Assembly (NCBI RefSeq): GCF_030246925.1
Contig: NZ_CP126740.1
Location: 1,116,001 to 1,180,000 of the forward strand
Direction: 5' to 3'
From: Microbacterium sp. zg-Y625
GTDB lineage: Bacteria > Actinomycetota > Actinomycetes > Actinomycetales > Microbacteriaceae
DNA: 64,000 nt
The notes beneath the pieces were generated by a model that worked only from the letters and a program-made list of their open reading frames with translations, had not been told where the DNA came from and searched no databases. A program made the translations under genes and the position numbers. Shown here piece after piece: positions 11,801-29,455 of this stretch (within the stretch, counting starts at the first letter, position 1; each line of letters begins with the position of its first letter).

Positions 11801-11900
11801 TCATCGAGTGAGTATTCGTCGCGTCGAGTGAGTATTCGTCGCGTCGAGTGAGTATTCGTCGCGTCGAGTGAGTATTCGTCGCGTCGAGTGAGTACTCGCG
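11801..11900 (+). repeat. 20-bp tandem hairpin repeat, array A1 (5 units)
   Basis: Five units of exactly 20 bp, typified by GCGTCGAGTGAGTATTCGTC. The first has a variant left end and the last a variant core (GAGTGAGTACTCG). The core CGAGTGAGTATTCG can fold as a 5-bp stem (CGAGT/ATTCG with one G-U pair) and loop GAGT. Unlike the other arrays it follows no gene, only leader duplicate 1. It ends 15 bp before the stop codon of the opposing pseudogene. Confidence 0.9.
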
Positions 11901-11915
11901 GTGCCGAGTCCCCGG

Positions 11916-12205
11916 TCAGCCGGGCCGCACCTCGATGCGAAGGATGCGGTCATCTCCGTCACGCGGGTCCGTCCCACCCCACGTCGCCCTGTCGGTGTTC
12001 GATGTGACGATCCACAGCGCGCCGTCCGGTGCCGCCTCGACGGTGCGGATCCGGCCATACGTGCCCTCGAGGTGCGCGATCGGATCCGCCGTCATCACGC
12101 CCCCCATCGACGGGCACCTGCCAGAGTCGCTGGCCGCCGAGTGCTCCGATCCATAGGGAGCCCGCCACGCTCTACGGGGCGAGCCCGCCTCAGGGCTGAT
12201 ACCGA
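11916..12205 (-). pseudogene. C-terminal remnant of a PQQ-dependent glucose/sorbosone-type dehydrogenase
   Basis: Minus-strand fragments match the C-terminus of the GSDH/YliI family in two frames. One reads [20 protein letters not shown] (about 12166-12105). After a G6 run the frame shifts to [20 protein letters not shown] and then [20 protein letters not shown], ending RIEVRPG at stop 11916-11918. Deleting one G restores the join. A TAG two codons before the first fragment and a second frame change upstream show further decay. No more of the roughly 350-residue protein is recognisable before 12205. Intact members are exported sugar dehydrogenases. Confidence 0.8.
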
Positions 12206-12249
12206 GCGCTCGCCTTGTCGGCATCCCTGCCGCACGCCCTCGCGCCCGG

Positions 12250-12312
12250 GATATCGTGAACAGGACAGGGATAGCCCCTGCCATCGTCGTATCGGGAGTA
12301 GACCGGCCGCCC
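12250..12312 (+). promoter_or_regulatory. Leader duplicate 2: promoter-like box and hairpin before mug
   Basis: GATATCGT (a TANNNT box), then CAGGG-ATAGC-CCCTG as a weaker hairpin, then the 23-nt block 12276-12298 shared with leader duplicate 1. GGGAG (12294-12298) is 14 nt before ATG 12313, which is long for a ribosome site. The shared block may therefore do something other than bind ribosomes. Confidence 0.5.
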
Positions 12313-12927
12313 ATGGGTTTCACGCGGGAGCAGCTGCTGGCCTTCCGGGAGCGCACGGTGCCGGATCTCATGCCCGAGCGGCCCCGGCTGGTGTTCGTCG
12401 GGATCAATCCGGGGCTGTGGACGGCCGCCACCGGGGCGCACTTCGCCCGCCCCGGTAACCGGTTCTATCCGGCGCTCGTGGCCGCCGGCATCCTTCCTCG
12501 CCTGCCACGGATCACCGACGACGGCATGTCGCCGGACGATCGCCGGATGCTGCTCGACGCGGGCATCGGTATCTCGAACCTCGTGCACCGGGCGACCGCC
12601 CGAGCGGATGAGCTGTCGCGCGAGGAGCTGCGCGAGGGCGCCCGGCGGCTCGAGGCGGATGCCGGGACGTGGGATGCCGCCGTGATCGCGGTGGTCGGCA
12701 TCACCGCGTATCGACAGGGTTTCGACCGGCCGCGGGCGACGAGCGGCCGCCAGCCCGAAGCGCTCGCCGGGGGAGCGCTGTGGGTCGTGCCGAACCCCAG
12801 TGGGCTGAACGCCCATGACACGGTGACCTCGCTGGCGGCGGCGTACGCCGAGCCCGCCCGCGCCGCCGGCCTTCTCCCCGCCGCCGGCCCTCGCCGATCC
12901 GCTGCTGCCGCCGCCGCCGCAGAGTGA
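12313..12927 (+). CDS. mug: G/U mismatch-specific uracil-DNA glycosylase Mug
   Basis: A 204-residue member of the Mug/TDG family. It shows the water-activating motif [12 protein letters not shown] (about residues 37-48), [11 protein letters not shown], and the intercalation motif [10 protein letters not shown] near residue 160. The enzyme removes U or ethenocytosine opposite G in base excision repair. E. coli Mug has 168 residues, and the extra C-terminal tail here is Ala-rich ([11 protein letters not shown]). Its stop codon TGA lies inside the first unit of repeat array A2, so the repeat may have changed the natural C-terminus. The start is the first ATG matching relatives. Confidence 0.9.
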
Positions 12928-12980
12928 GTATTGGTCGCGCCGAGTGAGTATTCGTGGTGCCGAGTGAGTATTCGTGGGCG
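12921..12980 (+). repeat. 20-bp tandem hairpin repeat, array A2 (3 units)
   Basis: Three 20-bp units follow mug directly, the second and third with core CGAGTGAGTATTCG and the first degenerate (AGAGTGAGTATTGG). The mug stop codon is the TGA inside the first GAGTGAGTA. The array points in the direction of mug transcription and ends 41 bp before the M23 peptidase start. Confidence 0.9.
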
Positions 12981-13021
12981 GAGTACCGTGGCGGTCACTC
13001 GGAGACCGGTAGGAGGTGCCC

Positions 13022-27868: not shown

Positions 27869-28551
27869 TGGCTCAAGCCTCACCCCGCGGACGCTCTGCG
27901 CCCGCGGGCTACCTCAGCATCGGCCAGGTACTGGCCCGGCTGGCACCGGAATTCCCCTCTCTCACCAGCAGCAAGCTGCGCTTCCTCGAGGTCCAGGGCA
28001 TCGTCGCACCCACGCGCACGGAGTCGGGCTACCGCAAGTTCTCGCCGGGCGACCTCGAGCGGCTGCGGCTGGCGCTGTCGCTCCAGCGGGATCACTACAT
28101 GCCGCTCCAGCGCATCCGCGAAGTGCTCGACGAGCGCGACGCCGGTCACGACATCGGCGCGCTCATGCCGCCCTCGATCACGGCGACCCCGCGCCGGTAC
28201 CGACGGGACGAGCTCATCGCCGCCGCCGGCGCCGAGGCGGGGCTGCTGGGCGACGCGATCACCGCGGGGCTGCTGGCCGGCGCCGACAGCTATGACGAGC
28301 GCGCGCTGACGCTCCTGCGCGCGCTGGCCGGGCTGGCGGAGCACGGCATCCATCCCCGCCACCTGCGTTCGCTGCGCCAGAACGCCGAGCGCGACGTCGC
28401 CCTGGTCGAGACGGCGCTGGCGCCCATGCTGCGTCGCAGCGACACCAACGCCCGCGCCCGCGCGGGTGAGCTCGCGCCCGAACTCGTCCGCCGACTCGAC
28501 GAGGTGCGCGGCGCATTCGTGCAGACCGCGCTCGACAGAATCACCCCGTAA
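27868..28551 (+). CDS. ftsR: MerR-family regulator FtsR-like (Rv1828 type)
   Basis: A 227-residue MerR protein. The N-terminal winged helix reads SIGQVLARLAPEFPSLTSSKLRFLE, then GIVAPTRTESGYRKFSPGDLERLRLAL. The C-terminal effector/dimer domain is long. In Corynebacterium glutamicum the orthologue FtsR activates ftsZ. The ATG overlaps the garA stop by one base (TGATG), so both are made from one transcript. Its likely target ftsZ lies at 59.5 kb here, with a dyad in front. Confidence 0.85.
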   Translation: MAQASPRGRSAPAGYLSIGQVLARLAPEFPSLTSSKLRFLEVQGIVAPTRTESGYRKFSPGDLERLRLALSLQRDHYMPLQRIREVLDERDAGHDIGALMPPSITATPRRYRRDELIAAAGAEAGLLGDAITAGLLAGADSYDERALTLLRALAGLAEHGIHPRHLRSLRQNAERDVALVETALAPMLRRSDTNARARAGELAPELVRRLDEVRGAFVQTALDRITP

Positions 28552-28645
28552 CGCGACACGCCGACGTCCAGATGCGGATGTCATTGAAGGTGCCCCTCGG
28601 CTCCCGTAGCGTGGAAGAACCGACCCGAACAGTGAGGAGACGAGC

Positions 28646-29191
28646 ATGACCGCTGGCGAAGCGGCCGACGGACAGCCGTTCGTTGCCGACCTCCTGTTCA
28701 CCGACGGACTGCCGCAGATGGACGACGAAGTCGGCTATCGCGGAGCGCAGGCGGCGCGTGCCGCCGGCATCACGTACCGGCAGCTGGACTACTGGGCCCG
28801 TACGGAGCTCGTGCAGCCCACGGTGCGGGGTGCCTCCGGGTCGGGATCGCAGCGGCTGTACGGCTTTCGCGACATCCTCGTGCTGAAGCTCGTCAAGCGC
28901 CTGCTCGACACCGGCATCTCGCTGCAGCAGATCCGCACCGCGGTCGACCAGCTGCGTGCGGCCGGCATCCGCGACCTGGCGGGGACGACGCTCATGAGCG
29001 ACGGCGCGTCGGTGTACCTGTGCACCTCGAACGACGAGGTCATCGACCTCGTGAGCCGCGGGCAGGGCGTCTTCGGCATCGCCGTCGGCAAGGTTCTGCG
29101 CGAGGTCGAGTCGACGCTGGTCGACTTCGACTCCCAGGCTCCCGACGCGATGGACGAGCTCTCCGCTCGCCGCGCGAAGCGCACCGCCTGA
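28646..29191 (+). CDS. MerR-family regulator, Rv1830-like
   Basis: A 181-residue MerR protein with a helix-turn-helix YRGAQAARAAGITYRQLDYWARTELV, wing SGSGSQRLYGFRDI and a short C-terminal domain ending SARRAKRTA. In mycobacteria the equivalent gene sits in the same neighbourhood, but the bifunctional nuclease gene (Rv1829) between the two MerR genes is absent here. GAGGAG precedes ATG 28646. Five nt after its stop begins a 20-bp repeat array. Confidence 0.88.
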   Translation: MTAGEAADGQPFVADLLFTDGLPQMDDEVGYRGAQAARAAGITYRQLDYWARTELVQPTVRGASGSGSQRLYGFRDILVLKLVKRLLDTGISLQQIRTAVDQLRAAGIRDLAGTTLMSDGASVYLCTSNDEVIDLVSRGQGVFGIAVGKVLREVESTLVDFDSQAPDAMDELSARRAKRTA

Positions 29192-29195
29192 CCGT

Positions 29196-29290
29196 TCGCG
29201 AGTGAGTATTCGCGTTCCCGAGTGAGTATTCGCGTTCGCGAGTGAGTATTCGCGTTCGCGAGTGAGCATTCGCGCCTGCGAGTGGCTCAT
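29196..29290 (+). repeat. 20-bp tandem hairpin repeat, array B1 (4 clear units and 1 degenerate)
   Basis: Units start with AGTGAGTATT at 29201, 29221, 29241, then AGTGAGCATT at 29261 and a degenerate AGTGGCTCAT at 29281, period exactly 20. Two units have fully paired flanks, giving a 7-bp stem CGCGAGT/ATTCGCG with loop GAGT. The array begins 5 nt after the merR stop and points the same way. Confidence 0.9.
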
Positions 29291-29399
29291 CGCGCCTGCC
29301 CACAGCTGTCTGCGTTGACGCGTCGTCGAGGCTTTGCCCGGTGCGCGTCGGCTGCGCGCAACCCGTAACTCGCTCGGCGCTGGAAGGGGGCTCGCCCCG

Positions 29400-29455
29400 C
29401 GAATACTCACTCGGCGCGACGAATACTCACTCGGCGCGACGAATACTCACTCGGC
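29400..29455 (-). repeat. 20-bp tandem hairpin repeat, array B2 (3 units)
   Basis: Three units GAATACTCACTCGGCGCGAC at 29401, 29421 and 29441 (the last truncated), i.e. the repeat on the minus strand. They start about 12 nt after the stop codon of the minus-strand ParA-like gene. B1 and B2 face each other across 110 bp of otherwise featureless sequence. Confidence 0.9.

Follow-up and report, generated by a model that had tools for sequence, protein, structure and literature searches.

A clade-restricted, REP/REPIN-like family of 20-bp repeat arrays at gene boundaries in Microbacterium

It is not settled by what means short dispersed repeats are maintained in compact bacterial genomes, a question that the locus described here poses for a family of tandem arrays on the chromosome of Microbacterium sp. 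zg-Y625. The stretch analysed, in the following called the window (64 kb), carries five arrays in which a 14-nt core, CGAGTGAGTATTCG, is separated by 6-nt linkers and recurs every 20 bp close to genes. What are these arrays, and what keeps them in place? They may well represent, as we tentatively propose, a clade-specific, vertically inherited boundary element resembling repetitive extragenic palindromes (REPs) and REP doublets forming hairpins (REPINs), which is kept without a REP-associated tyrosine transposase (RAYT) and would be recognised by a dedicated factor; the 3′ ends of transcripts are its most likely place of action. No description of the family was found in the open-access literature (subscription papers and preprints were outside the search), in agreement with the original prediction, which was made from the letters of the window and considered such an element undescribed. 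The core letters returned two matches among 5.39 million open papers, both unrelated, and none of the papers listed for REP-type repeats in connection with Microbacterium, actinobacteria or stop codons was recognised as describing the family.

The chromosome containing the window (3.26 Mb; G000 in the following, with G031, G295, G025 and G387 denoting the other Microbacterium genomes that carry the family) holds 281 exact copies of the core GAGTGAGTATTC, 144 on one strand and 137 on the other, while the reversed-letter control gave no match in the same 3.26 Mb. In the 764,775 bases examined, 269 of the 281 exact units fall into 88 arrays of two to seven units each. The spacing is exactly 20 bp in 240 of 246 cases in these stretches and in 409 of 421 across four genomes. 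Self-similarity at a lag of 20 amounts to 15.2 forty-nt windows per 100 kb, compared with fewer than one at each of eight other lags; because the G000 stretches were selected around arrays, the densities of arrays and of self-similarity are not genome averages. Units were collected with up to two mismatches in 12 nt, a threshold at which more diverged units stay hidden. Within the window itself there are 14 exact and four one-mismatch cores, against a mean of 0.03 and a maximum of one in 100 dinucleotide shuffles.

The arrays are tied to genes by both position and strand. Since our gene calls were home-made, relying on codon usage and start choice, an array closing an open frame was counted as the stop of that gene. 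The gene on the 5′ side of an array ends there on the same strand in 61 of the 88 cases and starts there on the opposite strand in 26, with one case undecided. The array starts between −27 and +22 nt from a same-strand stop codon in 54 of 88 cases; 1000 simulations using random positions in gaps and a random strand averaged 10.0 and never exceeded 20, and the mirror control, i.e. the 3′ end of an array at an opposite-strand stop, applied to 11 of 88. Among the same-strand arrays, 49 of 61 start within −7 to +15 nt of the stop. This bears out the dispersed family linked to gene 3′ ends and strand that the original prediction had expected; its label of a 3′-end element is too narrow, because 26 of 88 arrays have a gene start on their 5′ side. 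With regard to the type of gap, 85 arrays could be placed, of which 41 stop-side arrays lie in convergent and 19 in tandem gaps, and 14 start-side arrays in tandem and 11 in divergent ones. All are located in gaps or at gene ends, except for the array at 3092179 of G000, the first unit of which is translated. As judged by eye, three start-side arrays of G000 (3053497, 3057684 and 3068880) begin 16–23 nt before a start codon, bordering on the outer side of −10-like sites that appear to belong to leaderless promoters.

At many sites the element also supplies the end of the coding sequence. The stop codon is the TGA of the first unit (array start at −7) in 23 of 88 arrays, that of the second unit (−27) in two and that of the third in none. 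It can shift between species, as at site 62588, where the frame closes at a native stop in G000 and G031 but continues to the TGA of the array in G295. At array 3056654, PntB (the beta subunit of NAD(P) transhydrogenase) has the C-terminus ...ILRAAE at the TGA of the unit; next to this array-derived AAE end, 66 of 120 relatives among the matches listed end in RAL.

All five arrays described in the original prediction are present in the window, with three to five units each; their extents are given from the first to the last 14-mer. Four of them had been claimed to begin near a stop codon on the sense strand, which is indeed the case. A2 (12921–12974, plus strand, three units) begins at −7 nt relative to the stop of a mug-like gene (12313–12927, plus strand; UDG domain PF03167), whose stop codon TGA (12925–12927, plus strand) lies inside its first unit. 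A3 (13727–13780, minus strand, three units) follows the stop of an alpha/beta hydrolase gene (13788–14582, minus strand; PF00561) by 7 nt, B1 (29199–29272, plus strand, four units and then a degenerate fifth) that of merR (28646–29191, plus strand; PF13411) by 7 nt, and B2 (29400–29453, minus strand, three units) that of parA (29467–30276, minus strand; PF13614) by 13 nt. A1 (11805–11898, plus strand, five units) is a start-side array and not located at a stop; it lies upstream of an FAD monooxygenase gene of opposite orientation, at a distance of 153 nt from the gene start. The last unit of A1 carries a mismatch, as do three other units in the window. Beside these arrays, two stretches of about 65 bp resemble each other, one upstream of A1 (11741–11804) and one upstream of mug (12241–12310), with a hairpin GGCAGGGA-GAAG-TCCCTGCC in the first copy and an identical 22-mer, CCTGCCATCGTCGTATCGGGAG, at 11769 and 12277; a third copy was not found in the 765 kb examined.

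Which property of the unit is under constraint? The first ten core positions, CGAGTGAGTA, are each kept in at least 330 of 334 units, while the linkers vary. Among 612 units, the commonest core changes are T11C (73) and T9C (10), both of which turn a G.U into a G-C pair and are the only frequent changes of pairs within the core, together with changes at the 3′-edge positions G14 and C13. The changes G4A or G6A, which would equally preserve pairing, occur once in 612 units, from which we conclude that the sequence is recognised and not the pairing alone, although mutation bias may contribute. The constraint is moreover polar, with 0.14 changes per unit in the gene-proximal, 0.28 in the internal and 0.57 in the last units of G000. 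The gradient from first to last unit is also seen in start-side arrays (p 0.004) and in stop-side arrays beginning at ≥ 0 nt (p 0.002), and is weaker and not significant in the −7/−27 class (p 0.09). In G000, G031 and G025 (10 arrays), the repeat begins abruptly at the 5′ edge and trails off in degenerate units at the 3′ edge; in G295 both edges fade alike. Start-side and stop-side arrays have the same polarity, both being directed away from whichever gene lies 5′ of them.

The search of the genome and of related Microbacterium genomes that had been proposed along with the original prediction places the family in a single clade. The two-unit pattern occurs in five of 366 Microbacterium genomes (172 matches in G000, 134 in G295, 31 in G031, 13 in G025 and three in G387), which are the five best parA matches among the 366 genomes (363 with a match) and group together with an ultrafast bootstrap of 100 (parA and pyc, 15 genomes), the branching of G387, G295 and G025 being weakly supported (64 and 37). 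When the GTDB species collection was scanned, possibly without the records near that of the window, the family appeared only in M. pullorum (five stretches). The exact two-unit pattern had no match in IMG/VR viral contigs, nor had array B1 as a query in plasmids and phages, and a phage, plasmid or viral origin was rejected on these grounds. As a separate observation, another family of hairpins, GGTTGAG...TCGAAACC, whose inner stem is variable yet apparently paired, is found in 116 of 366 Microbacterium genomes, with up to 173 copies (in G203; also e.g. in G366 and G061), and is absent from G000; mutual exclusion of the two families, as suggested by the stretches examined, was refuted by eight copies in G295.

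Inside the clade, arrays are kept at orthologous places, where their linkers diverge and their cores do not. The gap between merR and parA carries plus- and minus-strand arrays, i.e. B1 and B2 and their counterparts, in G000, G031, G295 and G025, with differing unit numbers and linkers; G387 has remnants there, the B2 site being a degenerate lattice, and no array was found in this gap in G100, G248, G247, G381, G366 and G336. At the places corresponding to A1 and A2, G031 has no unit. An exact unit is present at 38 of 44 comparable sites in G031, 21 of 22 in G295, 8 of 17 in G025 and 1 of 14 in G387, fractions that are biased upward because many G031 and G295 stretches were chosen around known arrays. 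Arrays are far denser than elsewhere in a region of about 50 kb of G000 (3053497–3103686; 16 arrays, one at many transcription-unit edges), which is syntenic in G031, G025 and G387.

In G387 the family has decayed at many sites. Of the 13 non-intact sites, seven keep a degenerate lattice with a pitch of 20 nt (p ≤ 0.01 against dinucleotide shuffles); such a lattice was found in none of 20 array-free genomes at the single locus merR–parA that served as the control. Genome-wide, G387 has four exact and two one-mismatch units, compared with two matches of the reversed control, and no clear unit beyond one array. This array (positions 168760–168831 of C1) lies inside a fatty-acid operon, between acyl-CoA dehydrogenase and ligase genes as named from their sequence; its first unit is, by eye, translated in G000, G031, G025 and G387, and no recent import is evident, because the identity of the flanking proteins is ordinary (96 and 90%). 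A switch to another core instead of decay was rejected, since 378 kb of G387 sequence contain no further 20-nt family. If the arrays were cis structures served by universal machinery, their value should not vanish at many loci of one species together, so that the decay points to a trans-acting reader and suggests that G387 has lost it. A candidate for the reader was sought in the array-dense region (3.053–3.104 Mb), where the proteins without a match in the examined part of G387 are 3048153 (405 aa), 3065856 (676 aa), 3089277 (331 aa) and the block 3098552–3103801, of which only 3048153 and the block have matches in both G031 and G025.

With regard to RNA, the hairpin that the original prediction drew for each unit can be formed on paper, but it is weak (−1.5 kcal/mol) and is adopted in minimum-energy folds by only 19 of 333 units. 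Two adjacent units are self-complementary, with 6 bp, an AG/GA mismatch pair and another 6 bp around a 6-nt linker as the loop; with A-only linkers, this fold reaches −8.7 kcal/mol in the sense and −1.5 in the antisense direction. For whole arrays the mean folding z is −4.13 sense compared with −1.75 antisense, values that are low partly because the core is palindromic. There is no T-run in the unit and none directly after the arrays inspected, and an Rfam 15 scan of window positions 11500–30500 gave one match, MIR6297, at 31.6 bits and below its gathering score of 114. At 3163255–3163348 of G000, and likewise in G031, a T-run hairpin sits between stop and array, from which it follows that an array and a terminator-like hairpin can coexist.

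According to the reading introduced at the outset, each 14-nt core would be a sequence-specific recognition site, rows of which a dedicated trans-acting factor would read at a pitch of 20 bp. Adjacent units would pair in the sense RNA just past the stop codon, and paired units with bound factor might then halt 3′-to-5′ trimming or define where the transcript ends, and also shield the gene that follows. A broader formulation, which we regard as conceivable but uncertain, is a two-part system in which rows of the 14-nt word, set at a 20-bp pitch along the outer edges of genes, are recognised in a polar manner by a protein specific to the clade, which sets transcript ends or provides shielding; genes would have come to rely on the element for their stop codons, and the arrays of one species would have decayed once it lost the protein.

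Several results weigh against the reading as a boundary element acting at transcript 3′ ends. No protein was found for the trans-acting factor. Pairing between the stem flanks, from −1/+1 to −5/+5 in 334 units, equals that of shuffles (−1/+1: 96 against 94.6 ± 5.4), the closest to an excess being −1/+1 of the first units (35 of 88 against 30.0 ± 3.1); the claim that flank pairs differ in sequence and still pair thus fails genome-wide, and with it the covariation check, whose negative outcome the original prediction had named beforehand as refuting. Pairing alone does not account for the core, as seen from the rarity of G4A and G6A, and a role of the RNA needs no fixed 20-bp pitch, while the 26 start-side arrays require antisense or divergent transcripts if RNA is the acting form. 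At convergent stops, U-run hairpins accompany 10 of 36 sites with an array and 24 of 100 without, neither more nor fewer, and a replacement of U-run terminators by arrays is not seen in these numbers. Moreover, 17 of 60 arrays in G031 consist of a single unit, 6 of the 13 non-intact sites in G387 lack any remnant, and one array there, in the fatty-acid operon, has stayed intact.

Some of these points would be met by a polar insulator at the DNA level, in which the array is covered by a DNA-binding protein particular to the clade, each subunit occupying 20 bp (about two helical turns), and the gene is shielded from outside transcription or supercoiling. The fixed pitch despite variable linkers and the shared polarity of start-side and stop-side arrays argue for it, as does the orientation of neighbours: all 41 cases of opposite-strand arrays up to 450 nt apart, from four genomes, are convergent (21/21 in G000, 13/13 in G031, 6/6 in G295 and 1/1 in G025), many of them orthologous across genomes, and the gap between them is exactly 3 nt in 11 of 21 cases in G000. 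In G031 and G295, however, the gaps often differ from 3 nt. A helical phasing of converging arrays (3+10k nt) was noticed post hoc; two new pairs in G295 fit it, and two pairs from stretches examined earlier, measured on exact units, fall outside. Furthermore, unless it were polar, an obstacle at the stop codon would arrest polymerase within the gene, and the outward-facing unit is the least kept. We consider an insulator doubtful. Some converging arrays of G031 (476841/476861, 1864133/1864151 and others) are reduced to single units with a gap of 4–10 nt and form perfect, REPIN-like 14-bp hairpins.

Alternatively, the arrays could be a selfish dispersed repeat whose unit is copied by a mobilising enzyme other than RAYT, the sites past stop codons being the least harmful insertions. 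The patchy copy number within the clade (from 172 two-unit matches in G000 to three in G387), the REP-like placement and the missing units at the G031 counterparts of A1 and A2 fit this idea, and decay would be expected once the mover was lost. Copying alone, however, does not repair old copies, and the same sites are occupied in several species with diverged linkers and intact cores; the polarity within arrays and the lack of matches in viral contigs, plasmids and phages are equally at odds with it. The RAYT family PF01797 had no member in seven genomes tested at E ≤ 0.001, while 5 of 14 control genomes were positive, by which a RAYT-driven REP was rejected. We judge a selfish repeat unlikely. 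Very improbable, finally, is an element acting on translation, with structure at or just past the stop stalling terminating ribosomes and tuning expression, as reported for E. coli REPs up to 15 nt from a stop codon in PMC12306157: the 49 same-strand arrays within −7 to +15 nt of the stop would fit, but the 26 start-side arrays, the 20-bp pitch and the many-site decay in G387 would be left unexplained. The natural loss in G387, the orthologous sites and the built-in polarity together make selection, copying and binding distinguishable in this family.

Compared with known systems, the arrays share with Rho-independent terminators a possible RNA hairpin, a position past stops and frequent occurrence in convergent gaps, but they form a repeat family with fixed primary sequence and without a T-run. 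A fixed repeat, variable linkers and a degenerate far end recall CRISPR arrays, whereas the linkers here have 6 nt and are often repeated within an array, and the arrays stand at dozens of sites; cas genes were not searched for. Mycobacterial interspersed repetitive units (MIRUs) are actinobacterial tandem repeats that can likewise meet stop codons, with units that are much longer and typically located inside operons. The closest likeness is to REPs, bacterial interspersed mosaic elements (BIMEs) and REPINs, which are short, extragenic, imperfectly palindromic, present in hundreds of copies near gene ends, sometimes in converging pairs, and vertically inherited; a short extragenic palindrome in high copy number is also found here, with its 281 exact copies. 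According to PMC8266576, one REP class, REPMb, has a 5-4-5 palindrome, and RAYT-associated REPs carry a conserved tetranucleotide, mostly GTAG, before the palindrome. In our family, the positions before the 14-mer vary and there is no GTAG. As to inverted doublets as the unit of spread, the opposite-strand neighbours within 450 nt all converge, yet direct repeats make up most of the arrays and a partner is often missing. Further differences are the lack of a PF01797 protein, the tandem direct repeats at 20-bp pitch, the first unit that can carry the stop codon of a gene, and the maintenance of arrays at orthologous places. In work on REPs and REPINs, the persistence of such repeats is tied to a single transposase family. 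The present population is inherited vertically with no detectable member of that family, and the stop codons supplied by the element show how deeply the repeat is integrated into its host.

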